21,727 nt of DNA. It comes from a virus. This document shows, one piece after another, positions 1,973-19,531 of this stretch. How positions within the stretch are numbered: the stretch's first letter is position 1; each line of letters starts with the position of its first letter. Where the stretch lies: the IMG/VR virus record IMGVR_UViG_3300033571_008236, positions 1-21,727 of that record; one strand, written 5' to 3'. The position numbers and the translations under genes were made by a program. The notes under the pieces are model-generated. The model saw nothing but the letters and a program-made list of their open reading frames with translations, had not been told where the DNA came from and searched no databases.

Positions 1973-2002
1973 TGTATGGTCGTGCGGCAATAGGTGGATG
2001 AT

Positions 2003-2662
2003 ATGACTTCTCAGACCGGGATGACCTTTAACGAGCTTGAATCAGACGTTCGAAACTATCTCGAACGCGGATATTCTGCCGTCCTTGATCCTATTGTTTT
2101 TGAACAGATCCCTCGCCTTATTACTCTTGCTGAACGTCGGATCACGGCTGATCTGAAGCTGCAAGGCTTTATTGTTGCCGTCACCAGCACCATGCAAGCA
2201 GGTGTTGCGGTCTATCCAAAGCCTGATCGCTGGCGTGAAACAGTGTCGATCAACTTCGGAACCGGAACCCAAAACAATACCCGCAAGCCGCTCTTTACCC
2301 GCAGCTATGAGTATGTCCGGAACTTCTGGCCCGACGATACCCAGACCGACGAGCCAAAATTCTACGCTGATTATGACTATAAGAACTGGATTGTCGCCCC
2401 GACACCGGACGATGATTATCCGTTTGAAGTCGTTTATTACGAGCTTCCGGCTCTTCTCAGCACGGAAAACCAGACGAATTGGCTGACGGAATATGCTCCT
2501 CAATTGCTCCTTTACGGGACGCTGCTTGAGGCGACACCGTTCCTGAAGAACGATGAACGCATTGCCGTATGGCAGGGCTTTTACGACCGATCCCTTGCTG
2601 CTCTTGGCAGAGAAGATATTAAGAAAATCACAGACCGCGCCACCGTGCGTATGGAGGCTTAA
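2003..2662 (+). CDS. Head-tail adaptor protein, SU10/T7 gp11-like
   Basis: A 219-residue protein if started at ATG 2003, which has AGGTGG at 1992-1997 five bases upstream; a GTG at 1994 would add three residues but would lie inside this ribosome site. The sequence shows MTFNELESDVRNYLERGY, then IPRLITLAERRI, KPDRWRETVSI, RSYEYVRNFWPD, FYADYDYKNWIVAPTP, and NWLTEYAPQLLLYGTLLEATPFLKNDERI. I recognise this series as the phage adaptor family (SU10-type), whose members form a dodecameric ring below the portal and connect head to tail. It supports a short-tailed phage. The gene lies downstream of the endolysin and its TAA abuts the next ATG directly. Confidence 0.82.
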   Translation: MTSQTGMTFNELESDVRNYLERGYSAVLDPIVFEQIPRLITLAERRITADLKLQGFIVAVTSTMQAGVAVYPKPDRWRETVSINFGTGTQNNTRKPLFTRSYEYVRNFWPDDTQTDEPKFYADYDYKNWIVAPTPDDDYPFEVVYYELPALLSTENQTNWLTEYAPQLLLYGTLLEATPFLKNDERIAVWQGFYDRSLAALGREDIKKITDRATVRMEA

Positions 2663-4234
2663 ATGGGCAGCTACACGAATGTCTTTGGTGGATCGACGAT
2701 CTACCCGTCCGACGTATCGTATTACGCCCTGCCGCTGAACACGACGGATGTTGTTTTAAGCTGGCCGCTTGAAACCAATGCCTCGTCCAATATTGCAGCA
2801 AGGATCATCGACGTTAACTGCACGGTTGGCGGCCTAAAGATCTATACGCCGGATGCGCAGCTTGCATCGACGGGCGAAACAATCCTGTTCAACAACGTCG
2901 GAACTGCAACATTTACGGTTGTCGATGCGACTGGCGCAACGATCTGCGCACCATCGTCCGGAACCCAATGGCAGATTTATCTGACTGATAATACGACAGA
3001 GGCCGGTTCTTGGGAGTCGGTGGCGTATGGAACTGGCGTATCCGTCACCAACGCTGCCGGTCTTGCTGGCCCGGGCCTAAAGGCCATCTCGACGCGTCTT
3101 GCCACAACCGCCGCAATCACGAGCTTCAACACAAATTACACGACCGGAACCAATGATCGTGCGCAAGTTCTTATGTGGACTGGTGGTGCTGGAACCCTGA
3201 CGCTTCCGCTTGCGGGGAATGTGGGGAACGACTGGTATATTATCGTTCGCAATAGCGGGACCGGTGTTCTCACAATTGATTGTCAGGGAACGGAAGAAAT
3301 TGACGGCGCTGGAGCAAAGAACCTTGCTCCAACCGAATCTTGCTGGGTTTTGACAAATGGAACAGCTTTCTACACCGCTGGATATGGTCAGAACGCAGAC
3401 TTTGTTTTTGATTATGTCGCCATCGACGTGTCTGGAACGGGTGATTATACGCTTTCTGCCGCAGAGCAGAACAAGATCTCATACAATTTCTATGGCACAT
3501 TGACGGGCAACCGTAACATCATTGTTCCTCCGACTGTTCAGCAATACTGGGTGGACAATTCTACATCCGGATCATTTGCCTTAACGGTAAAGGTTGCAGG
3601 GCAACCCGGATACGCTGTTCCGCAAGGATCTCGCGCAATTCTTTATTGCGACGGAACCGACGTTCTAAACGCTGCAACGGCTGGTATTTCAACTCCCATC
3701 GGTATCGCAAACGGCGGAACTGGAGCAACATCAGCAAACGCTGCATTGATTAACCTTGGCGGTGGATCTGCTGGTATTTCAGTTTTTGAATCTGTAACAG
3801 CATCAGATGCTCGTGCCGCTCTCGGCGCATCCATCATTGGTGATTCACTCTTTACAACGCCGGGATCAATTGCAACGGTCGGATCGCTGAACGGTGGATC
3901 TGGTTACGTCAACAGCAGCTACACAAATGTTCCTTTGACGGGTGGAACTGGAATTGGTGCGCAGGCAACAATTCTTGTTGCAAACACCGCAGTTACAAAT
4001 GTCACAATCACAAACACGGGTCTTGGTTATGAGGCAGGTGACGTTCTGTCTGCCGCAAACACAAACCTTGGTGGATCCGGTTCCGGTTTCAATGTCACGG
4101 TTACATCAATCACAGCCGCGGCGGCTCGTGTAACGCTTGATGTTTATTCAACAGCACAAACAAACGCTGCCATCTCTGCGGCATCTGTTATTGATGGTGA
4201 AAACGCCATCGCATACGCAATTGCATTGGGATAA
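2663..4234 (+). CDS. Fibre-like tail structural protein with tail-collar motif and β-repeat module
   Basis: A 523-residue, Gly/Thr/Ala/Asn-rich protein that looks almost entirely β-structured. Residues 347-367 contain GIANGGTGATSANAALINLG, a motif found widely in phage tail fibres and collar proteins at the base of receptor-binding domains. Residues 407-484 form a module (YVNSSYTNVPLTGGTG, then VTNVTITNTGLGYEAGDVL, then LGGSGSGFNVTV). A related copy lies inside the next gene's product. The C-terminus (485-523) is a short Ala-rich segment of unclear role. GGAGG at 2653-2657 gives a strong ribosome site, and the ATG abuts the adaptor's stop codon. Placement between adaptor and nozzle-like genes suggests a virion-surface fibre or decoration protein. 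Exact role is not known. Confidence 0.72.
   Translation: MGSYTNVFGGSTIYPSDVSYYALPLNTTDVVLSWPLETNASSNIAARIIDVNCTVGGLKIYTPDAQLASTGETILFNNVGTATFTVVDATGATICAPSSGTQWQIYLTDNTTEAGSWESVAYGTGVSVTNAAGLAGPGLKAISTRLATTAAITSFNTNYTTGTNDRAQVLMWTGGAGTLTLPLAGNVGNDWYIIVRNSGTGVLTIDCQGTEEIDGAGAKNLAPTESCWVLTNGTAFYTAGYGQNADFVFDYVAIDVSGTGDYTLSAAEQNKISYNFYGTLTGNRNIIVPPTVQQYWVDNSTSGSFALTVKVAGQPGYAVPQGSRAILYCDGTDVLNAATAGISTPIGIANGGTGATSANAALINLGGGSAGISVFESVTASDARAALGASIIGDSLFTTPGSIATVGSLNGGSGYVNSSYTNVPLTGGTGIGAQATILVANTAVTNVTITNTGLGYEAGDVLSAANTNLGGSGSGFNVTVTSITAAAARVTLDVYSTAQTNAAISAASVIDGENAIAYAIALG
3881..4114 (+). repeat. β-repeat module, copy A (in fibre-like protein)
   Basis: This segment encodes residues 407-484 of the 523-residue protein. 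It shares an order of motifs with the segment at 5395-5640: GGSxY, YxNV, a Gly/Ala stretch, VANxxVTNVT, GxGYxxGDxL, NTxxGGxGxG and a final VTxxT. The DNA is clearly diverged between copies, so they are not recent duplicates. Confidence 0.75.
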
Positions 4235-4236
4235 TC

Positions 4237-6039
4237 ATGCCAACCCGCCCGATACACATCAAATCTCTTGCTGGTGTTAAACGAGACGGAACCCGTTTCG
4301 AGGGCGACTTTTACATTGATGCAAAGTGGATGCGGTTCCAGCGTGGTCTCCCGCGCAAAATGGCTGGCTATCGTCAGGTAACAAATGATGTCAGCGGATT
4401 GAACCGCGGCATGTTCACATCATCCGTCAACAATATGCTCTATACCCAGATCGGTTCTGCCGATTATCTGGAGCAGGTGGCGATTGACCAGAACGGCAAC
4501 CCGACAGCGGTGTATGACAGGACGCCTTCCGGCTTCGATGCAGATCCAAACAATATGTGGCAGATGGATATTTTCTACGATCCAATCACCGCAAATTCCG
4601 CAATTGTTGCCCATGCTGCGCCAAACCTGAACGACATCTCAAGCAATGCAGATCGACAAATCTACATTGGCGCGACAACGGCAACCAATTCATTTGTCCC
4701 GCTTGCAAACGGATCTTATTCAGTAACCGCACCAAATGTTTCAGGTGGCGTTGTTATTTTGCATCCGTATATCGTGGCATATGGAAACAACGGATATGTT
4801 GCATGGTCTGCACCAGACAATCCTGAAGATTGGACAACAGCAAGCGGCGGCGGTGAAGCCTATGTGACCGGGCAAAAGATTGTTCATGGTCAGGCATCTC
4901 GCGGCGGTGCAGAAAATTCTCCGTCTGGGATTTTGTGGAGCTTGGACAGCGTTATTCGTATGTCCTATGTTGGCGGAAACGTAACATTTACGTTTGACAC
5001 AATCTCTGACGAAAGTTCCATTCTCTCATCGCAGTCCGTCATTGAGTATGACGGTATTTATTTCTGGTGCGGTGTTGACCGCTTCCTGATGTATAATGGT
5101 GTCGTCAAAGAAGTTCCAAATCCTCTTAATCAGAATTGGTTCTTCGACAATCTCAATTATGCGCAACGACAAAAAGTTTTTGCTTTCAAGGTTCCGCGCT
5201 GGGGTGAGATTTGGTGGTGCTTCCCGTATGGCGATGCAACAGAGTGTTCACATGCGGTGATTTTCAACATCCGTGAGCAGACTTGGTATGACACTGTTTT
5301 GCCAAACGCCGGACGCTGCAATGGGCAATACGCCAAGGTTTATCGTTATCCAATTATGAGCGGCAATGAATCAATTCGTGCTGTTCGTAATGTCGGCAAC
5401 CTGACGGGCGGATCGTCATACAGCAACGGGACATATTACAACGTCGCTGTGAGTGATACGACAACGCCGGAAGCCATGGGCGCGACGGTTAATTTGATCG
5501 TCGCAAACAACACGGTCACAAACGTGACGGTTGTCAGCGGCGGCATGGGATACAATGTCGGGGATAACCTGACCGTTTCAAACACGTTGATTGGCGGGAA
5601 CGGAACAGGATTGAATTTTCAAGTGACGGCTTTGACAGGTTACTCTCTCTGGCGGCACGAAGATGGTGTCGATGAGATTGCCGGTCAAAACATCAACCCA
5701 ATCCAGTCATTTTTTGAAACATCCGACATCTCTCTTGCTGCTGCTGACGACTCTCAAAATAAAAGCCTTCGCGTGGTCATGATTGAGCCTGACTTTGTTC
5801 AGTCCGGAGATATGACGGTTCAGGTTACTGGCCGGGCAAACTCCCGTGCGCCTGAAGTCGTTTCAGATCCTCAGACATTTGTGGCCCAGCCGCAGACACC
5901 GCAGGAGCAGGTCGTATATCTCAAAACGATCCGCCGCCAGATGCGGTTCCGGTTCGAGAGCAACACGCTTGGTGGCAATTATCAAATGGGCCTCTGCCTT
6001 GCTCACATCGAGCCAGCAGACGGAACGGTGCTTGGATGA
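4237..6039 (+). CDS. Tail nozzle-like / DNA-stabilisation structural protein
   Basis: A 600-residue protein with a MPTRPIHIKSLAGVKRDGTRF start, an early YIDAKWMRFQRGLPRKMAGY segment, and repeated β-blade-like stretches. These include DGIYFWCGVDRFLMYNG (272-288) and SHAVIFNIREQTWYDT, which recall propeller-type tail proteins. Comparable proteins in SU10-like and P22-like short-tailed phages (P22 gp10 role) extend the adaptor ring and keep packaged DNA in place; that role is inferred here from gene order and form. Residues 387-468 are a Gly-rich module similar to one in the preceding protein. They sit between PIMSGNESI and YSLWRHEDGVDEI as if inserted. The ORF starts two bases after the previous stop and its own stop overlaps the next ATG by four bases. 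Confidence 0.6.
   Translation: MPTRPIHIKSLAGVKRDGTRFEGDFYIDAKWMRFQRGLPRKMAGYRQVTNDVSGLNRGMFTSSVNNMLYTQIGSADYLEQVAIDQNGNPTAVYDRTPSGFDADPNNMWQMDIFYDPITANSAIVAHAAPNLNDISSNADRQIYIGATTATNSFVPLANGSYSVTAPNVSGGVVILHPYIVAYGNNGYVAWSAPDNPEDWTTASGGGEAYVTGQKIVHGQASRGGAENSPSGILWSLDSVIRMSYVGGNVTFTFDTISDESSILSSQSVIEYDGIYFWCGVDRFLMYNGVVKEVPNPLNQNWFFDNLNYAQRQKVFAFKVPRWGEIWWCFPYGDATECSHAVIFNIREQTWYDTVLPNAGRCNGQYAKVYRYPIMSGNESIRAVRNVGNLTGGSSYSNGTYYNVAVSDTTTPEAMGATVNLIVANNTVTNVTVVSGGMGYNVGDNLTVSNTLIGGNGTGLNFQVTALTGYSLWRHEDGVDEIAGQNINPIQSFFETSDISLAAADDSQNKSLRVVMIEPDFVQSGDMTVQVTGRANSRAPEVVSDPQTFVAQPQTPQEQVVYLKTIRRQMRFRFESNTLGGNYQMGLCLAHIEPADGTVLG
5395..5640 (+). repeat. β-repeat module, copy B (inserted in nozzle-like protein)
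   Basis: This segment encodes residues 387-468 of the 600-residue protein and is related to copy A in the gene before it. It lies between two stretches that appear to belong together in the propeller-like part (PIMSGNESI and YSLWRHEDGVDEI), so it looks like an insertion into the parent fold. Confidence 0.75.
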
Positions 6040-6276: not shown

Positions 6277-7350
6277 ATGACGACGTTTCCAGTTGAGATT
6301 GATTTCACCCCACCGCACCGCAAAAAATATGCGAAGGGCGGTCTTGCGGCCAAGGCCGGGCAAGTGCAGGAAGCAAGCATTGGTCCTGACACAAAGCTGA
6401 TCCACGTCAATCAAAAGGAATATGATTGGCTGAAGAGCCAGTTTGGTCCTCCGGTCAAGAACCCGAAGACGGGCCTTGATACGTTTGGTTTCCTCGACTT
6501 CCTGATCCCGGCAGCGGCAAGCGTGTTCCTTGGCCCGGCCGTCGGTGGCGTTGTCGGAAGCGCCCTTGGTCTTGGATCGACGGCGGCAGGCGTTGTCGGT
6601 GGTGCGCTGGCTGGTGCTGGCGGATCTGCTTTGATGGGTAAAAACCCATTGACCGGCGCTTTGATTGGTGGCGGAACACCTGTCCTCAGCAATGCGCTTG
6701 GCCTCAACCTTTCCGGATTGTCTGCTGGTAATTTGTTTGGTGCGGCTCCTATGGGTTCTGGAGCCTCTGCCGCTCAGAATTACATCGGCGGATCTGATCT
6801 TGGTGGATATGCAGCGGGCGGCGGTGGCAAAGGTGTCCTTGGCGGTTTGTTCAGCGCAGGTGACAATCCGTTGCTGAAGGCAGCCCCGTATCTCCTCATG
6901 GCCTCATCTCTTGCTGGCGGTCAGCAAAAGCAGGGTGCGCCGGTTCCGATCAAAGACAATCAGAACAAGGTTCCGCTTTCTCAGGTTGAATTTGACCGCG
7001 AACAGACGCAGCCAACCGTCACACCGAACTATGCTTATGGTCCGGAACAGCAGTTTTTCCGCAATAACCGACTTCCGACATTGCCGCCTCCAATGGCCGC
7101 AGCAGAGGGTCGGTATGTAAAAGGTGGCGGAACAGGCACATCAGATGACATCCCCGCTGTTTTATCTGATGGGGAATATGTTATTGATGCACAGACAGTT
7201 TCGATGCTGGGAGACGGTTCATCTGATGCCGGGGCCGCAAAACTGGATAAAATGCGTGAAGAGATCCGGAAGCATAAAGGTAAACATTTGGCGAAGGGTA
7301 AATTTGCTCCCAATGCCAAGGGACCGCTTTCATACATGAAAAGGGCTTGA
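6277..7350 (+). CDS. Internal-virion-type structural protein with glycine-rich core
   Basis: A 357-residue protein. Residues about 70-135 are a hydrophobic Gly/Ala-rich stretch (AAASVFLGPAVGGVVGSALG and onward) of a kind that can insert into membranes. Residues 283-335 hold the motif GTSDDIPAVLSDGEYVIDA followed by SMLGDGSSDAGAAKLDKM, which I have seen repeatedly in phage virion proteins. The C-terminus is basic (RKHKGKHLAKGKFAPNAKG). It opens a series of four genes with similar composition ending in the giant polyvalent protein, the position where T7-like phages place core or ejection proteins. The start has AGGTGA at 6268-6273. No catalytic motif is visible. Role in the virion is inferred from motif and context. 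Confidence 0.65.
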   Translation: MTTFPVEIDFTPPHRKKYAKGGLAAKAGQVQEASIGPDTKLIHVNQKEYDWLKSQFGPPVKNPKTGLDTFGFLDFLIPAAASVFLGPAVGGVVGSALGLGSTAAGVVGGALAGAGGSALMGKNPLTGALIGGGTPVLSNALGLNLSGLSAGNLFGAAPMGSGASAAQNYIGGSDLGGYAAGGGGKGVLGGLFSAGDNPLLKAAPYLLMASSLAGGQQKQGAPVPIKDNQNKVPLSQVEFDREQTQPTVTPNYAYGPEQQFFRNNRLPTLPPPMAAAEGRYVKGGGTGTSDDIPAVLSDGEYVIDAQTVSMLGDGSSDAGAAKLDKMREEIRKHKGKHLAKGKFAPNAKGPLSYMKRA

Positions 7351-7352
7351 AG

Positions 7353-8393
7353 ATGTCTGTTCTTGATTTTCTCTTTCAGGGCAAGCCGCCGCCGTCTACA
7401 ACGAAATACGGCGAGACGGTTCAGGGCATCCCCCAGTTCATGTCGGACTACACGCAGGGCCTTTTGTCTCGTGCAAACGCCATTGCTGCTGAACCATATC
7501 GAGCATATGGCGGCCCAAGGCTGGCAGAATTTACACCAGAACAGCAACGGTCGTTTGATTTGACAAGTTCCAGCGTCGGCCAGTTCATGCCGACGATCAA
7601 CACTGGACTTGATTATACGCGTCAAGCGGCAGGCAAAAGCTCTTATGGTGCAGCGCAACCATACATGGATATTGCGGGGAGAACGGCTCCGTCCATGATT
7701 GGCGAGTATATGTCTCCGTATCAGGATCTTGTTGCGAACCGGATTGGGGTTTTGGCCGGACGCAACCTTCGTGAAAACCTGATGCCAAACATTAACCGGG
7801 ACTTTATCCGTGCCGGGCAATACGGCAGCAGCCGCATGATGGACACCATCGGTGGTGCGCTTCGTGACACGCAAGAGTCGGCTCTTGCAGCACAGGCTGA
7901 CCTTCTCAACAAAGGTTATGGTCAAGCCATTGGTGCGGCACAGACGGATCTCAATCGTTTTGCAGACCTTGGGCAGTTGGCTGGAAACCTTACGACGCAA
8001 GATGTCAACACATTGCTGTCGTCCGGTGCGCAGATGGGAACGCTTGGTCAGCAGGGTCAGGCAATGAACCTGAAGGATCTTGCTGCCCTCGAAGCCGTCG
8101 GTCAGACACAGCAAGGTCAGGCTCAAAAGGGTCTCGATATTGCGTATGGAGACTTCCAGCGTCAGCGGGATTATCCGAAAGATCAGCTTTCGATGCTCAA
8201 CGCGCTTATTCGTGGTTTGCCATATGGATCGACGACAAGCACAACATCGACTGGCCCGGCAGATTCATATCAGGCTTCTCCATTGGCCCAGCTTGCAGGT
8301 TCGGCCGCTTTGTTAAGCGGTCTTCGTTTTGCAAAGGGCGGCAAGGTTAGAAACCCAAATCGTCGTTCTAGCCGTGGACGGAAGCGGAGGTAA
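7353..8393 (+). CDS. Internal-virion-type protein, Gln/Ala-rich, basic tail
   Basis: A 346-residue protein read from ATG 7353, which has an AAAAGGG site at 7339-7345. A TTG at 7347 would add two residues. The middle is mostly α-helical and rich in Gln, Ala, Gly and Tyr: LADLGQLAGN-type helices, EFTPEQQRSFDLTSSSVGQF, and SMIGEYMSPYQDLVANRIG. The protein ends in a short, strongly basic tail (GGKVRNPNRRSSRGRKRR) that could bind nucleic acid. The segment YMSPYQDLV followed later by INRDFIRAGQYGSSRMM is a pattern I associate with internal or ejected phage proteins. A DNA-ejection or head-core role is inferred from this and its place between two similar genes. No enzyme motif is visible. Confidence 0.62.
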   Translation: MSVLDFLFQGKPPPSTTKYGETVQGIPQFMSDYTQGLLSRANAIAAEPYRAYGGPRLAEFTPEQQRSFDLTSSSVGQFMPTINTGLDYTRQAAGKSSYGAAQPYMDIAGRTAPSMIGEYMSPYQDLVANRIGVLAGRNLRENLMPNINRDFIRAGQYGSSRMMDTIGGALRDTQESALAAQADLLNKGYGQAIGAAQTDLNRFADLGQLAGNLTTQDVNTLLSSGAQMGTLGQQGQAMNLKDLAALEAVGQTQQGQAQKGLDIAYGDFQRQRDYPKDQLSMLNALIRGLPYGSTTSTTSTGPADSYQASPLAQLAGSAALLSGLRFAKGGKVRNPNRRSSRGRKRR

Positions 8394-8395
8394 TT

Positions 8396-9088
8396 ATGGC
8401 TGAAGGTCCACTTTCTGCTTATACGGCCGAAGAACTTATTCGCAGGCAAATCGCTGCTCAAGATGCGCAAATTGCTGCATTGCGGCAACCGGCCCCAAGT
8501 CAGGGCGGGTTTTTGTCCGGCGCAGATCCGGTGATGTTGTCACTTGCTGCTGGTCTCTTGTCTCCGACAAAGACAGGCGGATTTGGTGAAAGCATTGCTG
8601 CTGGTCTTTCGGCCGCATCGGGTCCGTTGTCTGACATTCGGCAGCAGGAAGCCGCTCGCGCCGATAAAATTGGTGCATTGCAAAGTGCGCAAGCCAAGCT
8701 GGCAATGGATCTTTATGAGATCCAGACCGGTGGTCTTCGTGGCCGAAAGATGGAAGATCCGTCACTTATCTCAAGCCGCTGGAATGAGCAGGCAAAAGAC
8801 TTGATGGCTGAAGCCAATATGCTTGATGAAACCAATCCTCAAGAGGCCCAAGAAAAAGCCGAACTTGTGGCGCAGGCAAAATACCTGAGAGATCTTGCAA
8901 AACGCGCATCTGGATTTGGGTCAAAAGCGGAGAGCCAAGGCTCAAAAGCTGAAGTCAAAGCAGAAGCAGAGACAGAAGAAGATCAAGGCGCTTATCCAAG
9001 GCCGACAACTAAAGAAGAATATGATGCCCTTCCAAGCGGAACGGTATATATTCACCCCAATACAGGCAAACAAAAAGTTAAACCATAA
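8396..9088 (+). CDS. Internal-virion-type protein with C-terminal YPRP/LPSGT motif
   Basis: A 230-residue protein. The N-terminus (1-35) is a helical AEELIRRQIAAQDAQIAALR segment, followed by a Gly/Ala-rich stretch (38-75), a long helical region (75-175) and a charged Lys/Glu/Ala linker (175-198). The last 31 residues contain YPRPTTKEEYDALPSGTVYI then HPNTGKQKVKP, a short C-terminal motif common to phage virion proteins near the ejection-protein genes. GGAGG at 8386-8390 gives a strong ribosome site and the gap to the previous stop is two bases. It probably acts with its neighbours inside the virion or during ejection, but this is inference from context. Confidence 0.62.
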   Translation: MAEGPLSAYTAEELIRRQIAAQDAQIAALRQPAPSQGGFLSGADPVMLSLAAGLLSPTKTGGFGESIAAGLSAASGPLSDIRQQEAARADKIGALQSAQAKLAMDLYEIQTGGLRGRKMEDPSLISSRWNEQAKDLMAEANMLDETNPQEAQEKAELVAQAKYLRDLAKRASGFGSKAESQGSKAEVKAEAETEEDQGAYPRPTTKEEYDALPSGTVYIHPNTGKQKVKP

Positions 9089-9097
9089 GGATCTATT

Positions 9098-12000
9098 ATG
9101 GCTGATTGGGGTTTATCCGATCCGGATTTTGATGCAACGAAATCAAAAGCCGTAGACACCTCGTGGGGCGAATCTGATCCTGATTATCAAGGTAGCGTCC
9201 CGACGCCAATATCGAGGCGAGAGGCGTTTCCGGAAGAACCTCGTTCTTTTACCGAAGCGCTTATTGGTCGTGGTGAACCGTCTAGAACGTCCATTGGTCT
9301 TGGCGGCGCACCTCTTGCTGAAAGCCAGCAAGGTCTTGATGAGACAGGTCTTGAACGCGCAACCACAGCGATTGGTGACATTCCAGAAGCCGCTATGCGC
9401 GGTTATTACGGCGCGAAGACTGGCGCAAACATCCTTGGTGTCGAGACTGGTGTCTTGTCACCTCAAGAGGCTGCTGCCAACATCGCAGCAAGCAACAAGG
9501 CTGCCGCTGCCGTTCCTATGCCTGAAAGCGTCCGAAAGGGAATGGAAGAGCTTCAAAAGGCAAAGGGATGGGCCGAGAGCTTTGAAGTCTTAAAGAAGTA
9601 TCCCGATATTTTGCCTTCCGTTGTTGGCGAAAGCGTATCGTCATCTCTCCTTTCTGGCGCAACAGGTCTTATTGGTGGTTTGACTGGTGCTGTTATTGGA
9701 TCTGCCGCTCCTGTTGTGGGGACCGCCGCAGGTGGAACGGCCGGTCTTTCGGTTGGTGTTGGCCTTGGTTCTGCAGCAACAGAATATGCAAGCACGTTGA
9801 ACAATTTCCTTTTGGAACGTGGATACGACACATCAAATCCAGACCAGTTGAAGGCTGCCTTCTCCGATCCTGATTTGATGGCAGAGGCTCGTAAGGATGC
9901 TGCGTTGCGCGGTGTCGCCGTTGGTGCATTTGATGCCCTGTCTGCTGGTGTTGCTGGCAAGCTGTTTGGTCCGGTCAGCAGATTGGCTGGCAAGAGGGTT
10001 GGGCCTATTGCCGGATCGACGGCAGAGCTTGGCGCACAAGCCGGTGCTGGCGCTGCTGGTGCGGCCACAGGTCAGGTTCTCACAGAAGGTAAAATTACAG
10101 AGCCGTCTGAGATTCTTCTTGAAGCCGCTGGTGAAATTGTCCCCGGCCTTGGCGAAATTGCAATCAGCAAGATGCTCCCATCCGGACAGGCTCCGGCTGC
10201 GGCCCCTGCCGCTCCCGCTGCCGCACCGACGGAACCACTTCAGGTCAACGTCACCGTTCCGATGCTTCGGCCGGGCGAGAGACCAGAAGGTGCTGCCGCC
10301 GAGCCAGAGCCAAGTGAGAAAGATCTGGAAACGCTCAGTGACGTTGCTGCTCTCAGAGGGGCAGGCTTCGATGTTGATGACATCTCCTCGATGTCCACTC
10401 GTCAGCGCCGTGCAGTAGCAGACAAGATCAGGAAAGATGGCATAGTAGAACCTGCTGAACTGACGCCGGACGAGATCCAGCTTTTTGCGCCAAATGTATT
10501 GGCTCCGGCCGTTCCGTCCTCCCCGGAACCGGCTGTTGAGGCGCGGGGGCCAGAGGGTTTGCTTCCTTCCCCTTCTGCGCCCCCGGTCGCCCCAGTTGCA
10601 GATGCTCCATCTGAACGCGCTGCCGCGCTTGTTCAGCAAGGCGTTGAACCGCTTGAGGCTATGCAGCAAGCAGCACAGGCTCCAGTTGAAGCTCCAGCCC
10701 CTATTGAAGCGCCACAGGCGACGCAGCCTCTTCTTAATATTCCCTACGATACGCTGACGTTCGACAACGCGGCGAATAGGACAGTCGCGTCGTCTGGCAA
10801 TAGTCAGATTATCAATTTCAGCGGCCGAATGATCGTTGTGCGGGATGTTGATGGCGTCCGTGTGCCGTTTTATCTCAGCACAGGAGATGGCGGCAAAAAA
10901 GATGTTCAGTCCGGCAAATGGTATCCATTTTTTGGCATCGGACCTGACGGCTGGATCAATAAGACTGGCGGCGCTGAGATGTCTGGGTATTATGGCAGTG
11001 AAGCGTTACGAAACGCTGCCCAGCAGCTCGACAGCGAGATTGGCGATATTCGCAATGACAAATCGGTTCCAAAAGTAAAAGCAACCGGATCTCATATTGA
11101 CTTTATCAACGAAGGTCTCTCGCCCGTTGAGAACCAAACTCCAGATACTCTTGCCCGCGTTCGAGACAATATCGACGGGCTGCTTGCTCGCCTCGGTGGG
11201 TCTCAAGTTAAACCGGCTCCAGATCGCACGGAGGCGGGTTCCGCTGCCGTTCCTAAATTTTCTCGGGAGTCTGCAAAGAAACAATTCGACAATGCCTTTA
11301 CCGGAAAACCGTTCAAGGCCACGCTAATCCGTGGTCAGGGCGCAACCGAAAGCCCATACAACGATTTCGGTGCGCAAGAACCAATTCTCGGCCAAGGTCG
11401 ATACACGACATATGACGAAGAATATGCTTCTATCTTTGGTCCGAACATCACGGAACATGAAGTTTCTCTTAAAAATCCTCTTGTCATCGACAATGATTTG
11501 CGATGGAAAAACCTGACCAAGAAAGCTGGATGGAAATTCCCAAATCCATCCATGGCTGAACCGGGCCGGGCAAAACAAGAGATCGCAAACCTTCGCAAGA
11601 TGCTTGTCGATGAGGGTTATGATGGTGTTGTTATCCTTGTCCCAGAAAGCGAGATCGACGGTAAAACGCTTCAAAACGTCTTTGGCGCAGATCAGGCCAT
11701 TGAATTTAATGTTGCAAAACCCGCTGTAGAAAAGAAGGCCGAGCCAAAAGCAAAGGCAGAACCGGTTGCTGCTGCACCAAAGGCAAAGAAGGGTCCGTCT
11801 CCTCGTCCGTTCTGGCGGGCAGGAAACATGGACACCGCCATCCGCAATATGGGCGGCATCAAGGATGTTGGTGGGGAATTTAAGGCCCGTGATGTTCCTC
11901 GTCAGTTGATTAACAATAAGCGCGGCCGCCCGTTCGAGCAGGTCGCTCTCGATCTTATCGAGCGTGGATACTATCCGGAATTTAAAGCCGATCTTGAGGC

Positions 12001-15000
12001 TTCAGCAGACAGCGCGACCGGCAATTACCAGCCGACGCCGGAAATGCTTGAGCAAATCAAGAACGATGTTGGCAAAAAGAAAATGCACCCGTCCTATCAA
12101 GAGGACGTGGAAGAAGCTCGTCGTCTTGACCAAGAAAAGAATATCTTTGGTCCATACATTGAGGAAGCAGAGAAAGCGGCAGCGGCTCTTGGCATCAGCA
12201 AAGATGATCCGATGGTCCGTCAGGCTGCGCAGATGGTCTACAACGGCGACGTTGAGACGGCAGAAGATGCGTTCCGCGCCTTGCTGTTCACTGAGATTGA
12301 AGATGCCCTTCCCGCTGAAGCCCTTCCCGAATTGCGTGAAGCGTTCGGTGAAGAAAACCTGAGAGACATTGAGGAGTTTCTTGCCATTGAAGGCATGGCT
12401 CCATTGGAGGCTGATTATGTTCCCGAACCATCACCAGTGCAGGAAGGTCGCCCAGTTAGCGGAGAGATCCGCGAACAAGGAAAGCAACCCGAAGGCGAAG
12501 GCGCACCTGAAGTCTCTCGCGGCAAAGTGGCGGAACCTGTCGGCGAAAAGGCTGAAAGGAAAAGCGGCCCAATCCTGAAAGAAGTTGCAGCCTATTATCG
12601 CAACGAAGGCTCATTGAGGGCGGTCCCGCGTCCTGATGGATCGCAAGAAATTGTGTCTCGTGACGGATCTGTCAAAATTGCCGTTGTGCCGAAAGGCAAA
12701 GACATCGAACGTGCGATGCTTGAAGCCGTGCGCGATGAAGCAAATCGGTCCTTTGGCGATGATCCGACCAAGATGACGCTTGATGAGTTTAGCATTGCAT
12801 ATCGCATGAAACTCATTCCTGAATTTGAGATCACGCCGGACGAGATGAGCAAGCTGCTTGTCACCGCGCCAGATGGAACATTCACGGTCAACATCCGTGG
12901 TCTGTATGACAAGATCATGCAGTCTGTCGAACCGGACATTTCAAGGCAGGCAAAAGAAGATATTGGTGCTGAAGGCAAGCCGCAGCTTGTTATCCCGGGT
13001 GCGGAAAAGGTTGACCAGAAGAAGATGCTTGAGAAAAAGGCTCAAGCACCTCTGAAGGCCAAAGTGAAACAGAAAGAGCCGGGCGGATTGTTCAGCGATG
13101 AACGTCTCCAGCAAGATCTGTTTTCTTCCGTTGCATCTAAGCCTGAACCGAAGCCTGTTGTTGAGCAGCAGCCAAAGCGCCAGATCGCTGATTGGATGAA
13201 AGAGTATGCTGCAAGCAACGGCCACAAGGCCGTGTTTGCGAACGAAAAGATTGGTATCGCTTATCGCTCAACCCAAAACGGGATCCTTGAGTATATTGCC
13301 TATCACCGTCCATCCAATTCCAAAACAATGGTGGATGTTGATGCCTACACTGGAACGATGTTCACGCCGGACGAGCTTCAGCTTTTGCGCGATGAAAAGG
13401 CAAAAGAGGAAAAGTGGTCGGCAAACGAACTAAGCAAAAACCCTGCTGGTCCGTTTAAAAATGCAAACATTGTTGTTTCACCAAACTTCCCAGAAAAGTT
13501 TGCAAAGATTGGCATTGAATGGCTGAAAATTGCAAAAATTCCGCCAAACACAAAAGTCATGTTCTCGACGGTTGAGGATGCTGAGAATATGGATCTTGCT
13601 GGTGACTATCGCATCATCAGTTCTCCAAAGACATTCTTTAACGCTGGAACAAACGGGCTTCATGTTTCTCCAAAGGAAAATCCAAAAAATACACGCACAG
13701 ATCAGGACTGGCATGTAATTTACATTAAGAAGGGTATGAAGACAGCAAAGACGCTGGAAACATTGTCACATGAAATTGGACACCTTCTTGATATTGTAAT
13801 TTGGAGAAACGCAAGCGGCCCAGAAAAAGACGCCGTTATTCAAGCGCACGAAACGTGGGCCAAGAAGTCAGGTGCGGGTTTTGCGCCAGATTTGTTTTCT
13901 GGTCGCGCCTATCGGACGCAAAGAGAGCTTTTGAAGAAGTATCCGCATATGGCGCAAACGCCAGCATCCAACATTGGGCAAAAAGAATATTTCTTGAGCT
14001 TTCCTGAATGGTATGCCGACAACATGGCTCGCTGGTTCACATCTCAGAACAAGCCACTTACCGTCGTTGATCGTTATTTCAAGAGATTGGCTGATGCTTT
14101 GCGTCGTTTCTATGCCGCCATCACAAATCAGCAATACGCACCAAACCCTGAATTTAAGAAATGGTTTGAGGGATACCTCGATTCTCAGCCGCAGTTTGCT
14201 GCGCCAAACATGGTTGAGATCAAAACACCTGAGACAATAGCCAGAGAGCAGCGCGATACATTGGATCGCAGCCCTGATCCCGTTTACACCGTGCCGCAAG
14301 ACGGTCTTGGTGCGCAGTTCATGTATAGCATTGTTGATCGTTATTACGATGCAACTGCAATTCAACGCGCGATTGAAGCGGCCCGTGGCTCAAAGATGCC
14401 TGACAATCTGGACGTTGAAATGGCGATCCAGCTTATGCAGGACAAGGCTATTGCCAAGCAGAACAAGTTCTTTGACGACAAGGTTCGCCCCATGGTCGCG
14501 TTTATGCAGACGCATAAAATAACCGGGGATGAGGCTGGCATGTTCCTTTATGCGCAACATGCACCGGAGCGTAACCTCCGCATGGCGCAGCGTGATCCTA
14601 CACGTTTTGACGGGACAAACGGTTCCGGCATGACGACGCAGGAAGCCATCGACTATATGGAGAGCATCCCGGAAGAGCGACGTGCTTTGCTGAAGCAGCT
14701 TTACAACGATCACGTCAAACCGATCCTCCGCTCGGATCTTGATTATCGTGTCGAGAATGGCCTTCTCACTGATGAAGCATATGAGTCTTATACGCTCCCA
14801 TTCGATCAGGGCGGCTATGACTATTACATGCCGCTTCAGGGCTTTGCAGAAGAAGATGCTGATGCAAGCAATTCGATCCCGAATGTCGGCCGTGGCTTTG
14901 CTGTCTGGGGCAAGGAATATAAGGTTGCGGCAGGTCGTGTCAGCAAGGCAATGAACCCGCTGTTCTCCGCCATTCAAAAGAGAATGGATGGCATTGTCCG

Positions 15001-17038
15001 TGTTGAGAAGAACAACACCGATAAGGTCATTTACGACCTGTTCAAGAAGAACCCGAACCCTGAAGTTGCCGAGATCTACAGCGAAAAGAATTTGCCGACG
15101 CGGCCCGTTCTTCGCATGGATGGGACAATCCAGCAGGTTCCGGACTTTGCCGAGGCCCGCGCTGATTATACATTACCGCTCAAGATTGGCGGAAAGCAGC
15201 ATTACATTGTCTTTAATCGAGACAATCCTGTTTCCTCCCGACTTGTCCGTGTTTTGAAGAACTTGGATAAAGATTCGACGGACATCATTAGCCGGACAAT
15301 CTTCTCTCTTGGTCAGTTTATGTCGAAGATCAACACCCAATGGGTTCCTGACTTCTTCATCACCAACATGCCGCGCGACGTTCAGGACGCTCTTGTTTCG
15401 CTTTACTCGACAAAAGAGGGTCTGGCGACGAACTTCATGGCTGAATTTACGCGGGCCGGAAACATCGTCAGGAAGGTTGCCTCTGGCAAAACGCTCAGTG
15501 TCGATGAGCAGGCGTCCTATGATGAATGGACCGGCAGCGGTGGACGTTTGGACTTTGGTGGCTTTGCAACGGTCGCAAAGTCGGCAGACAAACTGGAAGA
15601 AGAATTTGGCGACGTTTTCAATCGGGAACGGACAACGCCAGAGCAGCTTCAACGCTATTTCAAAAAGAGCGGTCAAGTCACTCTCGGCGCTATCGAAGCC
15701 TTCAACCAATTCTTCGACGATATGGTTCGCTTCTCTGTCTATCGGGCAGCAAGAAAAGGCGGGATGTCGCGTGATCGTGCGGCCCAGTTGGCTCGTCGTG
15801 CGACGGTTGACTTCCGGCAGCGCGGCCAGATCATGCCATATGTCAATGCGTTCTATCCTTATCTCAGCGCCGGTATCAACGGTGTGCGGAACTTGTTGCG
15901 CGTCTTGAGGACCAAGAAGGGCAAGAAGATCATTGGTTCGCTGATGCTTCTTGGTGTCGCCAATTCCTTGCTGGGTCTTGCATTGTCTGAGGACGATGAG
16001 ACTGATCCCACAAAGAAAAAGTATTACACTGAAATAAATTCATGGGAACGGGCCAAGTCGATCATCATCCCGATCCCGATCAACGGCAAGTATCGCAAAG
16101 TCAGCCTTGGTTTCATGGGCCTCTTTGCCTTTGGCCTTGGGGATCAAATTGTCGGTTATCTCAGTGGCAATGTGAAGGCTGATGAGGCAGCAACGAATGT
16201 CGGCACATCTCTTGTTTCGTCATTCGTTCCTTTCTGGTCTGGTGGCGCTGTCGATTCAATAACGCCATGGGTCTTGCAGCCTGTCATCGAGCTTTGGACA
16301 AACAGCAATTGGTTAGGCAACCCGATCTATCCGGAAAAAGATACTCGTATGCCGCAGTCGTCTCAGGCTTTTGAGAAGACACCGGAGTGGGCAAAGTCGG
16401 CAGCGGAGTTTGCAAACTATTGGTCAGGCGGTTCTCATACAGAACCCGGCTGGGTCGATGTATATCCGGCAACGCTGGAATATTTTTCGAACTTTGCCCT
16501 GCAAGGTCTCAAGTCCTTTGGCTCTTCGTCCTATGAGACTTTCAGGAGCTTCATGGATGGTGAGGCTCCGGAAGGTGACAAGATGCCGTTCGTGCGCCGC
16601 GTCACCACGCGCGATACAGCGCAGCGGTCTGACTATTATGAATTGCGCAATTCGATTAAGGCCGGTGTTGCCCAAGCGCGAGATCTGCGCAAAATCATTA
16701 TGGACAGAAAGTCCACACCTGAAGAGAAGGCAGATGCTCGCACCACCATGCGCAAGCTGTCTCGTGAGCTTGGCATAAGCCTGACGACGGATGGTGTTAC
16801 AATCAAGAACAGCATCGCGGATCAGTTTGATAAGACCGATGAGAAAATTAAAAGGTTCAACGAAGAAATCAAAGCTATCCAAGACAATGAAAACCTGACA
16901 ACGGCTGAAAAGGCCGAGCGTGTCAGGCAGAAAGAAGCCGCAAAAGAAGCGGCCATGAATCTTGCCCGCAGGCGATACTTGAGCCGGAACCGGCCGGAAG
17001 AATCGCCCGCAGAGCAGATCATGGATGTCTTACAGTGA
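9098..17038 (+). CDS. Giant polyvalent protein: metallopeptidase + ART-like + LPD38-like regions, probably virion-borne
   Basis: A 2646-residue multi-domain protein. In order: two WG-x-SDPD repeats at the N-terminus; a Gly/Ala hydrophobic stretch (183-227); Pro/Ala linkers (about 360-540); a compact domain (about 552-652) with GKWYPFFGIGPDGWINK at 606-622. Next is an ADP-ribosyltransferase-like region (739-872) with LIRGQG, GQGRYTT at 765-771 and GYDGV at 840-844, then a conserved GGIKD segment from 911. A zincin follows, with HEIGH at 1558-1562 and EWYAD at 1637-1641. Last is an LPD38-like half (1736 to about 2330) including NMPRDVQD, a hydrophobic segment (2278-2296) and a C-terminal coiled coil. 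Such domain mixtures are known as polyvalent proteins, thought to enter the host with the DNA and counter defences. AAGGA at 9087-9091 supports the start. Ejection is inferred from position after internal-virion-type genes. Confidence 0.85.
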   Translation: MADWGLSDPDFDATKSKAVDTSWGESDPDYQGSVPTPISRREAFPEEPRSFTEALIGRGEPSRTSIGLGGAPLAESQQGLDETGLERATTAIGDIPEAAMRGYYGAKTGANILGVETGVLSPQEAAANIAASNKAAAAVPMPESVRKGMEELQKAKGWAESFEVLKKYPDILPSVVGESVSSSLLSGATGLIGGLTGAVIGSAAPVVGTAAGGTAGLSVGVGLGSAATEYASTLNNFLLERGYDTSNPDQLKAAFSDPDLMAEARKDAALRGVAVGAFDALSAGVAGKLFGPVSRLAGKRVGPIAGSTAELGAQAGAGAAGAATGQVLTEGKITEPSEILLEAAGEIVPGLGEIAISKMLPSGQAPAAAPAAPAAAPTEPLQVNVTVPMLRPGERPEGAAAEPEPSEKDLETLSDVAALRGAGFDVDDISSMSTRQRRAVADKIRKDGIVEPAELTPDEIQLFAPNVLAPAVPSSPEPAVEARGPEGLLPSPSAPPVAPVADAPSERAAALVQQGVEPLEAMQQAAQAPVEAPAPIEAPQATQPLLNIPYDTLTFDNAANRTVASSGNSQIINFSGRMIVVRDVDGVRVPFYLSTGDGGKKDVQSGKWYPFFGIGPDGWINKTGGAEMSGYYGSEALRNAAQQLDSEIGDIRNDKSVPKVKATGSHIDFINEGLSPVENQTPDTLARVRDNIDGLLARLGGSQVKPAPDRTEAGSAAVPKFSRESAKKQFDNAFTGKPFKATLIRGQGATESPYNDFGAQEPILGQGRYTTYDEEYASIFGPNITEHEVSLKNPLVIDNDLRWKNLTKKAGWKFPNPSMAEPGRAKQEIANLRKMLVDEGYDGVVILVPESEIDGKTLQNVFGADQAIEFNVAKPAVEKKAEPKAKAEPVAAAPKAKKGPSPRPFWRAGNMDTAIRNMGGIKDVGGEFKARDVPRQLINNKRGRPFEQVALDLIERGYYPEFKADLEASADSATGNYQPTPEMLEQIKNDVGKKKMHPSYQEDVEEARRLDQEKNIFGPYIEEAEKAAAALGISKDDPMVRQAAQMVYNGDVETAEDAFRALLFTEIEDALPAEALPELREAFGEENLRDIEEFLAIEGMAPLEADYVPEPSPVQEGRPVSGEIREQGKQPEGEGAPEVSRGKVAEPVGEKAERKSGPILKEVAAYYRNEGSLRAVPRPDGSQEIVSRDGSVKIAVVPKGKDIERAMLEAVRDEANRSFGDDPTKMTLDEFSIAYRMKLIPEFEITPDEMSKLLVTAPDGTFTVNIRGLYDKIMQSVEPDISRQAKEDIGAEGKPQLVIPGAEKVDQKKMLEKKAQAPLKAKVKQKEPGGLFSDERLQQDLFSSVASKPEPKPVVEQQPKRQIADWMKEYAASNGHKAVFANEKIGIAYRSTQNGILEYIAYHRPSNSKTMVDVDAYTGTMFTPDELQLLRDEKAKEEKWSANELSKNPAGPFKNANIVVSPNFPEKFAKIGIEWLKIAKIPPNTKVMFSTVEDAENMDLAGDYRIISSPKTFFNAGTNGLHVSPKENPKNTRTDQDWHVIYIKKGMKTAKTLETLSHEIGHLLDIVIWRNASGPEKDAVIQAHETWAKKSGAGFAPDLFSGRAYRTQRELLKKYPHMAQTPASNIGQKEYFLSFPEWYADNMARWFTSQNKPLTVVDRYFKRLADALRRFYAAITNQQYAPNPEFKKWFEGYLDSQPQFAAPNMVEIKTPETIAREQRDTLDRSPDPVYTVPQDGLGAQFMYSIVDRYYDATAIQRAIEAARGSKMPDNLDVEMAIQLMQDKAIAKQNKFFDDKVRPMVAFMQTHKITGDEAGMFLYAQHAPERNLRMAQRDPTRFDGTNGSGMTTQEAIDYMESIPEERRALLKQLYNDHVKPILRSDLDYRVENGLLTDEAYESYTLPFDQGGYDYYMPLQGFAEEDADASNSIPNVGRGFAVWGKEYKVAAGRVSKAMNPLFSAIQKRMDGIVRVEKNNTDKVIYDLFKKNPNPEVAEIYSEKNLPTRPVLRMDGTIQQVPDFAEARADYTLPLKIGGKQHYIVFNRDNPVSSRLVRVLKNLDKDSTDIISRTIFSLGQFMSKINTQWVPDFFITNMPRDVQDALVSLYSTKEGLATNFMAEFTRAGNIVRKVASGKTLSVDEQASYDEWTGSGGRLDFGGFATVAKSADKLEEEFGDVFNRERTTPEQLQRYFKKSGQVTLGAIEAFNQFFDDMVRFSVYRAARKGGMSRDRAAQLARRATVDFRQRGQIMPYVNAFYPYLSAGINGVRNLLRVLRTKKGKKIIGSLMLLGVANSLLGLALSEDDETDPTKKKYYTEINSWERAKSIIIPIPINGKYRKVSLGFMGLFAFGLGDQIVGYLSGNVKADEAATNVGTSLVSSFVPFWSGGAVDSITPWVLQPVIELWTNSNWLGNPIYPEKDTRMPQSSQAFEKTPEWAKSAAEFANYWSGGSHTEPGWVDVYPATLEYFSNFALQGLKSFGSSSYETFRSFMDGEAPEGDKMPFVRRVTTRDTAQRSDYYELRNSIKAGVAQARDLRKIIMDRKSTPEEKADARTTMRKLSRELGISLTTDGVTIKNSIADQFDKTDEKIKRFNEEIKAIQDNENLTTAEKAERVRQKEAAKEAAMNLARRRYLSRNRPEESPAEQIMDVLQ

Positions 17039-17362
17039 TGGTATCTTGAGGCGGTAGACCTTTGCTGGGCGACCTGCCCCTAATTGGTTCTTAACCTCCG
17101 GCAGTTCTTCAGCAAGGTCAAATGCCATCAGCTTCAACATGCTTACGGTTGTCTTGTATCTTCGGTCTGGCGGCAGCTTCGACGGCATGATGGGGTAGAT
17201 CCCAAATTCATCAAATAGCTGTAGCCATAAAACAGCAAGTATGGGATGATAATTTGTAATAAGAAGCCGAACCGTCGGGCTGATTATCAGCCGCGCTGCG
17301 TCCCGTCGGGCCTTTACTCTTCCCACCGGGGGACCACTTGACCGTTTAATTTTCTTTTCCAT
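17030..17362 (-). CDS. Small basic protein, possible winged-helix DNA-binding, last gene of leftward operon
   Basis: A 110-residue basic protein. The N-terminus is Lys/Arg-rich (MEKKIKRSSGPPVGRVKARR). The middle looks helical (RLLITNYHPILAVLWLQLFDEFG, then VSMLKLMAFDLAEELPEV), and the end GAGRPAKVYRLK resembles the wing plus strand that closes many winged-helix domains. A role as a transcription or DNA-binding factor is a guess from that ending. The ATG at 17362 has GGAAAGG seven bases upstream, which supports it although it overlaps the HNH gene by 49 bases. An internal GTG closer to the HNH stop is an alternative. The stop overlaps the giant late gene's end by nine bases on the opposite strand. 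Confidence 0.6.
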   Translation of the reverse strand: MEKKIKRSSGPPVGRVKARRDAARLIISPTVRLLITNYHPILAVLWLQLFDEFGIYPIMPSKLPPDRRYKTTVSMLKLMAFDLAEELPEVKNQLGAGRPAKVYRLKIPSL

Positions 17363-17679
17363 TTTGAAGCCTTTCCACCGGGAAGCGGTGTCTTGGATTG
17401 TTTGAACCCAAGGGTTACTGATTTTTGTCTTTTGGCTTTCGCAGCCGTTGCGTGGTCCTTTTTAGTCTTTGTTGTCGCGCATGGCTTGCATGTAAGTCGG
17501 ATATTGTCATCCTCATCCGCGCCACCCAGTTCAAGTGGTCTGACATGCTCGAAGATAAACCCGCCAACCCTGAGTTTTGATCCGCAGACCATGCACTTTC
17601 CGTGTTCTCTTTCCCAGATCGCAAGTTTTCGACGATTAGAAAGATGGCCTCTTTTAGTTGTGCCAACATCTTCAACCAT
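17314..17679 (-). CDS. HNH endonuclease
   Basis: A 121-residue nuclease. Zinc ligands are C29 and C32 (CMVC) and C64 and C67 (CKPC). The ββα-metal site contains E44-H45 (FEHVRPLELGG) and N59 (DEDDNI), with H76 near the end of the motif. The downstream helix AAKAKRQKSVTLG and the basic end PLPGGKASKWKRKLNG are typical of phage HNH proteins of this size. I chose ATG 17679, which overlaps the upstream stop by eight bases; starts at 17718 and 17751 exist but would lie deep inside the upstream gene. Similar small HNH proteins often assist terminases, but here the neighbours are recombination genes, so a role in early DNA processing or host DNA attack is equally possible. Confidence 0.85.
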   Translation of the reverse strand: MVEDVGTTKRGHLSNRRKLAIWEREHGKCMVCGSKLRVGGFIFEHVRPLELGGADEDDNIRLTCKPCATTKTKKDHATAAKAKRQKSVTLGFKQSKTPLPGGKASKWKRKLNGQVVPRWEE

Positions 17680-18136
17680 TGTCTTTCCATTGTTGTAGAC
17701 GATTTTGTTCAACGACATAGCTGAAATTAAATTCCGCGCTTTTATTCTCATCCTTATACAACTCTGCTGCCGTTATATATCCGGGGAATAGAACATATGT
17801 GTCGTGCAGAATTGCAAGCGCGAACACATCAATGTCATCGTTGTGTTTGGCGATAAGTTTTCCGCTTTTGACGCGGGTCGTTTTCACATCGAACCGTTTC
17901 TCCTTGAGTAGACAGTCGGCAGATCCCGTCCTTGGTTTTGCTGTGATGTCAAAGAATATGTTCCAGTGCTTGCAGAAAGCATATTCACCAATGAACCCAT
18001 CCTCATCAATCTCGTAGGTATCGCGGTTGAACGGCGTGTTTTTACTGGAGACGGTTCGAGCCGAGAACGACCGAAGGTTTCCCATCATCTTGCAAACGGC
18101 AATTTCAGCCGGTTCAAGGTCAACCCTGATTATCAT
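17672..18136 (-). CDS. PD-(D/E)XK-like nuclease, phage type
   Basis: A 154-residue protein with the residue order of the PD-(D/E)XK nuclease fold: E51 in DGFIGEYAF, D74 in RTGSADCLL, then D83 and K85 in FDVKTT, followed by a DIDVFALAIL strand and VLFPGYITAAEL. The series GEYAFCK, PRTGSADC, DVKTT is one I recognise in short phage proteins usually annotated as hypothetical. Members of this fold cut DNA as exonucleases, junction resolvases or restriction-like enzymes, and the substrate here is unknown. The start at 18136 overlaps the preceding gene by 17 bases. Its place between an unknown gene and the HNH gene suggests work on early phage or host DNA. The fold assignment is from residue pattern only. 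Confidence 0.65.
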   Translation of the reverse strand: MIIRVDLEPAEIAVCKMMGNLRSFSARTVSSKNTPFNRDTYEIDEDGFIGEYAFCKHWNIFFDITAKPRTGSADCLLKEKRFDVKTTRVKSGKLIAKHNDDIDVFALAILHDTYVLFPGYITAAELYKDENKSAEFNFSYVVEQNRLQQWKDNG

Positions 18137-18455: not shown

Positions 18456-18583
18456 CGTTTTTTCAACCAAGCCTGTTCGCGTTCTTTTCTGAGCCGATCC
18501 AATTCGATGCGCATCTCTGCAAATTCATCGTGCATAAACCGGTATCGTTTTGCCAATCGGGCAAATTCATCCTGAAGGTCCAT
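18452..18583 (-). CDS. Coiled-coil small protein, 43 residues
   Basis: A short gene read from ATG 18583, overlapping the end of gcrA by 17 bases and ending with an ATGA overlap onto the next gene. The product, MDLQDEFARLAKRYRFMHDE followed by FAEMRIELDRLRKEREQAWLKKR, is almost wholly a charged amphipathic helix with heptad-like Leu/Ile/Met spacing, so a coiled coil is likely. The frame is open upstream as far as an ATG at 18814, but that would overlap gcrA by nearly 250 bases and its extra N-terminus is low-complexity, so the short form is preferred. Function unknown; an adaptor or inhibitor that binds a partner protein would suit its size. Confidence 0.6.
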   Translation of the reverse strand: MDLQDEFARLAKRYRFMHDEFAEMRIELDRLRKEREQAWLKKR

Positions 18584-19079
18584 GTATCTTTTTATGCTTA
18601 CTACCCCCTCCGTCTCTGTATTTTGGCTGCTCGTCGAAGGGCCGATAGACAATGGCAGCGTGATAGTCGCACCATCCGTTTCTTGTTGCTGGTGTTCCGC
18701 AGCAAATGTATTGCTCTCCTCGTTTTTCAACGATGAATTTGCATTGGTGATTTTGTCTTCTGAGGAACGGGACATAATGCTCCTTACTAGGCGGGGGAGG
18801 CGGTGATATTTCATGCTTTACCCTTTCCTGTTTCGGGCCTGTCAGAAATACTCTCCTGAGATGTTCTCCTCTGCGCGGTCTTGGTGACTTTGGTGCATTT
18901 TCTTTCGTGGCTTTTGCCCCAGACTTCGCCAATGATTTTACTTTATTGCGGTGCATTACGCCAATCACGGAGTTGCGTGTCCGGCCGACTTGCCGCCCGA
19001 TCTCTGATGCACTTTTGCCTTCAGCAGCCAGCTTCCTGACGATTTCTAATTCATCTGGTGTCCAATGCTTTAATGTCAT
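18567..19079 (-). CDS. gcrA: GcrA-like cell-cycle transcription regulator
   Basis: A 170-residue protein of the GcrA family (Pfam GcrA). The N-terminal helix-turn-helix domain is clear: HWTPDELEIVRKLAAEGKSA (5-24) then SEIGRQVGRTRNSVIGVMHR (25-44). A Pro/Lys-rich linker follows (60-105), and a Cys-rich C-terminal segment contains C113, C126, C127, C137 and H140 (CKFIVEKRG, CCGTPATRNGWCDYH). In alphaproteobacteria GcrA binds sigma-70 holoenzyme and activates promoters carrying CcrM-methylated GANTC. A phage copy may redirect host transcription to phage or S-phase genes; this is inference. The ATG at 19079 overlaps the upstream TGA (ATGA); a start at 19091 is possible. No CcrM methylase is in the window. 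Confidence 0.9.
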   Translation of the reverse strand: MTLKHWTPDELEIVRKLAAEGKSASEIGRQVGRTRNSVIGVMHRNKVKSLAKSGAKATKENAPKSPRPRRGEHLRRVFLTGPKQERVKHEISPPPPPSKEHYVPFLRRQNHQCKFIVEKRGEQYICCGTPATRNGWCDYHAAIVYRPFDEQPKYRDGGGSKHKKIHGPSG

Positions 19080-19531
19080 GAGCGTGTCCATTCTTCCGGC
19101 TCCATACCCAACATGGCAAACACTTCGTCGAGCAGGGCTTGCCTATCAGTTTCAGGGATAACTTCTTCGACGATCACATCCAGACATTGATTGAAGAACT
19201 TCCTAAATTCATCCTGCCCCATCGAATGAAACGATATGGATTTGGTCTGCGTCCATATCTTTCCATCGTGCATCATAACGCTATCAACCCAGCCGAGACG
19301 GACCTTCAGCCATGTGAGAAGCTGTTCCGGATTGGTGTAATAGGGATGGTTTTCCACAACCTTCGCCAGAAGAGACCAAAACAGGCGATGCTGCTTTGGG
19401 CTTCTGGTCCGGGTTATCTTGACTGTCAGATCACGGCCTTCAGGGATCTCAAGCAAATGCTCCCGATCCCATTCGGTAACGGGGAGAAGCCTCTCCCCGC
19501 TCCGGCGCATGATGAGGAAGTCGTTGCTCAT
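19076..19531 (-). CDS. DUF1367 family phage protein
   Basis: A 151-residue protein matching the general pattern of DUF1367: a DLTVKITRTRSPKQHRLFWS segment (34-53), LLAKVVENHPYYTNPEQLLTWL, a HDGKIWTQTKSISFHSM stretch, and DEFRKFFNQCLDVIVEEVIP near the end. DUF1367 proteins are found in phages and prophages next to recombination genes, often in the place of NinB-like factors, but no biochemical role is established that I know of. The ATG at 19531 overlaps the erf stop by four bases, and its own stop overlaps gcrA. The coupling to erf suggests a role in recombination or replication. Confidence 0.75.
   Translation of the reverse strand: MSNDFLIMRRSGERLLPVTEWDREHLLEIPEGRDLTVKITRTRSPKQHRLFWSLLAKVVENHPYYTNPEQLLTWLKVRLGWVDSVMMHDGKIWTQTKSISFHSMGQDEFRKFFNQCLDVIVEEVIPETDRQALLDEVFAMLGMEPEEWTRS

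Follow-up and report, generated by a model that had tools for sequence, protein, structure and literature searches.

What is a single protein that takes up more than a third of a virus fragment made for? The window, i.e. the whole stretch of DNA that was analysed, is a virus record of 21,727 bases, apparently a fragment, and the gene in question lies at 9098..17038 (+). It encodes a giant protein of the polyvalent/ejection type, 2646 amino acids long in the list of open reading frames. As the initial annotation had pointed out, it fills over a third of the window (36.5%); the reading frame is uninterrupted and starts with ATG, 8 nt after AGGA, a good ribosome site. The same annotation described a polyvalent protein with a zincin, an ART-like region and LPD38, and all three are found by Pfam, models and alignments: biochemically unrelated domains in one reading frame. 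It missed a conserved C-terminal core of about 810 residues, of which LPD38 is the last part, the hydrophobic segment of this core, and a duplicated N-terminal motif. The reading that we prefer, with a probability of about 0.68, is that the giant is carried inside the virion of a short-tailed phage as an ejection protein, and that it consists of a delivery chassis and a changeable load. It is a fresh example of an already known kind of phage protein and not a new system.

According to Pfam and PHROG matches, the left part of the window is a virion block of the short-tailed phage type. It encodes a SU10-type tail adaptor protein (1994..2662, +; PF24175, E=2.3e-27), and therefore the virus is probably short-tailed. 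The adaptor is followed by a fibre gene (2663-4234) and a 600-residue virion structural protein (4237-6039, PHROG 3287). These two have a type of segment in common (3833-4153 and 5395-5640; PHROGs 5342 and 438) that baseplate wedge proteins and tail fibre proteins also have. Holin and M15 peptidase genes are located in the same block, and the giant is its final gene, downstream of the genes for the adaptor, the virion structural protein and the DNA ejection protein.

Three internal-virion-type genes had been proposed directly before the giant. The clearest is the second, a 348-residue protein (7347..8393, +) that matches the DNA ejection protein family PHROG 4287 with E=4.6e-15 and has homologues upstream of other giants. 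For the first and third genes synteny agrees with the proposal, while the profiles say little. The first, of 357 residues (6277..7350, +), has only a short match to tape-measure families, but its position before giants is conserved. The third, of 230 residues (8396..9088, +), lies immediately 5' of the giant and has no PHROG match of note; its homologues are found directly before the giants of four other loci (L007, L008, L009 and L202).

Downstream of the giant, on the opposite strand, there are HNH, GcrA, ERF and YqaJ genes. The start of the HNH endonuclease gene (17314-17751, -), which has weak PtuB similarity, overlaps the next gene (17672-18136). The presence of a GcrA-like cell-cycle regulator (18567-19091, -; PF07750, E=8.5e-17) points to an alphaproteobacterial host. 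No RNA families or tRNAs were found in the window.

The conserved C-terminal core (aa 1730-2540, 14285..16717, +) contains the motifs HAPERN and GSGMT and matches PHROG 14770 with E=9e-103. The LPD38 call within it is certain: PF18857 covers aa 2309-2499 (16022..16594, +; E=1.9e-32) with 113 bits against a gathering cut-off of 27, as the initial annotation had expected. LPD38 is only the end of a unit of about 810 residues that is common to hundreds of phage giants. The domain has been listed as phage-only (Iyer et al., PMC5512222), and the core as a whole matches predicted viral proteins only. Its identity is 42-43% to viral contigs L005-L009 and 23-28% to Vibrio phage 1.205.O, Ruegeria phage 45A6, E. 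coli podoviruses and Bcep22-like phages. Just before LPD38 there is a hydrophobic helix (aa 2277-2297, 15926..15988, +; hydropathy 2.05), which is also helical in the model and is possibly a membrane segment. The core has no PDB match by sequence, and few VIA-align rows touch it in the model of aa 1360-2545, which has a pLDDT of 83.

That model also contains the zincin metallopeptidase-like domain (aa 1453-1701, 13454..14200, +), with HEIGH at 1558-1562 and E1637 as third ligand. The family has 108 matching stretches in viral contigs. The HExxH motif and the downstream glutamate, the third zinc ligand, are kept in 40 of 40 homologues, and in this alignment H1558, E1559, H1562, Y1631, E1637, W1638 and A1640 are invariant. 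The best VIA-align matches of the model are lethal factor (Z 8.3, a moderate value) and the Pro-Pro endopeptidase PPEP-1 (Z 7.3), with other zincins lower; Foldseek alone gives no significant PDB match for the same model. Polyvalent MPTases related to lethal factor have been found by profile (Iyer et al., PMC5512222). Here the MPTase-PolyVal profile has no hit, neither in the window nor among the families shown for the 40 homologues at E<=0.1. Instead of acting as a weapon, the domain might be a peptidase that processes its own chain. It is a speculation that a preference for proline-rich substrates would suit an enzyme that cleaves the Pro/Ala-rich linkers of the same chain.

These linkers are found at aa 346-397, 467-550 and 867-910, and they bear out the low-complexity stretches between domains that had been described before. 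In addition there is a conserved linker motif of 52 residues, EGKPQLVIPGAE...GLFSDERLQQDLFS (aa 1292-1343, 12971..13126, +). Its pattern, Q..VIPGAE...PLK...QK...GLF.D...Q.DLF, is found in 17 giants, this one and 16 others, at varying distance from the zincin. We considered the "GLFSDE" part of it as a cutting site for the zincin and rejected this as a rule, since it lies 79 to 2468 residues before the next HExxH and sometimes no HExxH follows.

The second enzyme-like region is an ADP-ribosyltransferase-fold domain (aa 735-875, 11300..11722, +), defined by a model and an alignment of this giant with 14 homologues. The proposed ART-PolyVal match (PF18760) is below threshold in the giant itself (E=0.009; 17.2 bits, where the Pfam gathering cut-off is 31.2), but 5 of the 15 subfamily members match the profile at E<0.1, the best at 2e-5. 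The AlphaFold2 model based on the alignment has a pLDDT of 86.8, and its top VIA-align rows are ADP-ribosyltransferase-fold proteins: NatT (Z 5.9), the A4 pre-ejectosome (5.7), MbcT (5.6) and PARP1 (5.5). The Z values are moderate, while the agreement in fold among the leading matches is clear; Foldseek alone finds no significant PDB match for this model. The active-site residues, positioned by motif and not by superposition, are R745, Y769 and Q866, and the tyrosine and glutamine are invariant in all 15 members. Polyvalent ARTs have been described with an H-Y-D active site (Iyer et al. 2017, PMC5512222). Given R-Y-Q instead, with Q at the third position throughout the subfamily, it is uncertain from the sequence whether the domain would have transferase activity.

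How the giant relates to other phage giants was studied by alignment-based scans of viral contigs. Scans seeded with the whole protein or with single domains gave no close relative. In general the C-terminal end is constant and the middle is exchanged. LPD38 is present in all 16 full giants scanned, and between them these contain ART-PolyVal (6), InPase (5), LPD1 (5), LPD5 (4) and LPD3 (3), and more rarely ddrB-ParB (2), MuF-C (2), M23 (1) and helicase/methylase (1). Further, in 56 non-redundant giants the core is preceded by a sufficient length of sequence; an HExxH lies within 500 residues before the core in 29 of them, where 0.5 would be expected by shuffling. Many of these zincins have no detectable similarity to the one studied here. 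The giants of L007-L009 are about 40% identical to this one in the core and weakly similar at the N-terminus, with a different middle and a different zincin. The order ART, zincin, core is not unique, because it recurs in two other viral lineages (L131/L132/L221/L222 and L133). The counts document a constant C-terminal core against exchanged middle enzymes, and the giant is a clean three-domain addition to a family for which most of the knowledge is computational.

At the other end, the giant starts with a duplicated motif, WGLSDPDF (aa 4-11) and WGESDPDY (aa 23-30), at 9107..9187 (+). The self-similarity of this head exceeds that of 100 out of 100 internal 70-mers and 100 out of 100 shuffles, and a related pair is present in the L007/L008 giants. 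Among 96 non-redundant giant heads, 22 are more self-similar than every one of 100 segments taken from inside the same protein, where about 1 such head would be expected. The shuffle test is passed by 28 of the 96 heads, compared with 7 of 247 other reading frames in the same loci. The duplicated heads include those of L007, L019, L023, L101, L135, L173, L178, L192, L193, L202 and others. The sequence of the repeat differs by lineage and is often aromatic plus acidic: WGxSDPD[F/Y] here, and FDQF, KPWEKYAQ, DFSKFGTPV, DPWAVV and others elsewhere. Other giants begin with different short modules. The idea that other internal virion proteins have the same motif was rejected, as it is absent from the neighbours in 26 of 26 loci tested. 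A limited literature search found no description of the duplicated motif.

From the sequence, a docking or packing peptide would be the obvious guess. Tentatively, the extreme N-terminus of the giants might be a lineage-specific address motif, duplicated in many lineages, through which the giant would dock in the head or to its partners in ejection, with the middle as exchangeable load; we hold this to be somewhat less than an even chance.

The motif is followed by a Gly/Ala-rich hydrophobic domain (aa 187-357, 9656..10168, +), common to L030/L113 (E 3e-17) and, over aa 228-355, 44% identical to proteins of Xanthomonas phage CP2. It is possibly a membrane-interacting segment. Next comes an unnamed domain (aa 539-695, 10712..11182, +), which has no Pfam match; it matches PHROG 32390, is 42% identical in its homologues in L057/L060, and is present in structural proteins of Cellulophaga phages.

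It had been suggested that the giant may be packaged and ejected with the DNA to disarm host functions on entry. Packaging and ejection are well supported by analogy. In the Bcep22-like phage JC1, gp69 (4515 aa, LPD38 at 4195-4401) was identified by 51 unique peptides from CsCl-purified virions (PMC9144972). The genes upstream point the same way: homologues of the ejection protein are found upstream of giants in about 40 further loci, and L007, L008, L009 and L202 all keep the order ejection protein, 230-residue protein, giant. The virion RNA polymerase of N4 demonstrates that proteins as large as this one can be ejected. The ART model also matches residues 1421-1594 of 9k3a_B, which is part of the pre-ejectosome of cyanophage A4. 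Judged by length and position, 9k3a_B would be the 1717-residue "tail protein" of Anabaena phage A-4L (L226:20116-25269, -). Where 9k3a_B matches, that protein has an ART-like pattern, LYHGT...GSGTYFS, and no Pfam match. That the giant disarms the host on entry is plausible but less secure than packaging: the ART has R-Y-Q in place of the described H-Y-D triad, and self-processing may be all that the zincin does.

In the preferred reading, the chassis would be formed by the N-terminal docking motif and hydrophobic domain together with the core of about 810 residues ending in LPD38. The load would be the ART-fold domain and the zincin of lethal-factor/PPEP-like fold, with disordered linkers between them. 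By homology, the giant would be made late and enter the head together with the ejection proteins encoded next to it, and then be threaded through the tail like beads on a string. Its hydrophobic parts may anchor it in the inner membrane, after which its own zincin would cut it and free the load domains in the cytoplasm. The freed load might then act on host proteins while the DNA enters. Cleavage is not a rule for such proteins, since the virion RNA polymerase of N4 has an MPTase domain and is still packaged unprocessed.

The giant could alternatively be a purely structural ejection protein that only builds a trans-envelope channel, its ART and zincin domains being worn down and kept for shape. 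The change of the ART triad to R-Y-Q, with Q in 15 of 15 members, would fit such decay, as would the conservation of the ends of the giant and not of its middle. However, the metal and base residues of the zincin are intact in 40 of 40 homologues, and other recognisable enzyme families occupy the same place in different giants, which makes a structural role alone unlikely.

A DarB-type head protein, which accompanies and protects the DNA against restriction and does not attack host proteins, is suggested by the Bcep22-like proteins that share the core and are annotated as DarB-like. This name, however, fits their helicase/methylase part. No SWI2/SNF2 helicase or adenine methylase is found in the giant by Pfam and PADLOC, so membership was rejected and we regard such a role as very improbable. 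Lowest of all we place a late protein that is not packaged but made in the infected cell, where its targets would be the host or superinfecting phages. Packaging of the giant in this virus rests on homology, which leaves some room for such a protein; on the other hand, the relative JC1 gp69 is found in virions and the gene for the giant has a fixed place as the last of the ejection genes.

Several known systems resemble the giant in part. The polyvalent proteins of Iyer et al. 2017 (PMC5512222) likewise combine zincin, ART and LPD domains in one chain near virion genes. The giant differs from them in the R-Y-Q instead of H-Y-D triad and in a zincin subfamily without a Pfam model, and its exact chain is new. 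N4 virion RNA polymerase is likewise a giant that is ejected and has an MPTase domain; its units are joined flexibly, and its N-terminus inserts into the membrane. Membership of this type was rejected, as no single-subunit RNA polymerase domain is found in the giant with Pfam, PHROGs or PDB sequences. The 1717-residue protein of Anabaena phage A-4L (pre-ejectosome, PDB 9k3a) is, like the giant, a large ejection protein that contains a segment with the ART fold; unlike the giant, it keeps an LYHGT-type motif and has no zincin or LPD38 match, and sequence similarity between the two is not detectable.

In Microcystis phage Mae-Yong1326-1 and Vibrio phage VS-ABTNL-3, giants of 2441 and 1790 residues have the same zincin subfamily and the same gene order, but the LPD38 core model does not match them. 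The giants of Vibrio phage 1.205.O, the E. coli podoviruses and Ruegeria phage 45A6 have the opposite combination: 26-28% identity over aa 1730-2540, with other middle domains and other zincin families. The Bcep22-like proteins JC1 gp69 and BcepIL02 gp70 have the core with LPD38 and are the last virion-block genes after internal virion genes, just as the giant is. In contrast to them, the giant has no transglycosylase, methylase or helicase, is shorter (2646 versus 4515-4667 aa) and is 23% identical in the core.
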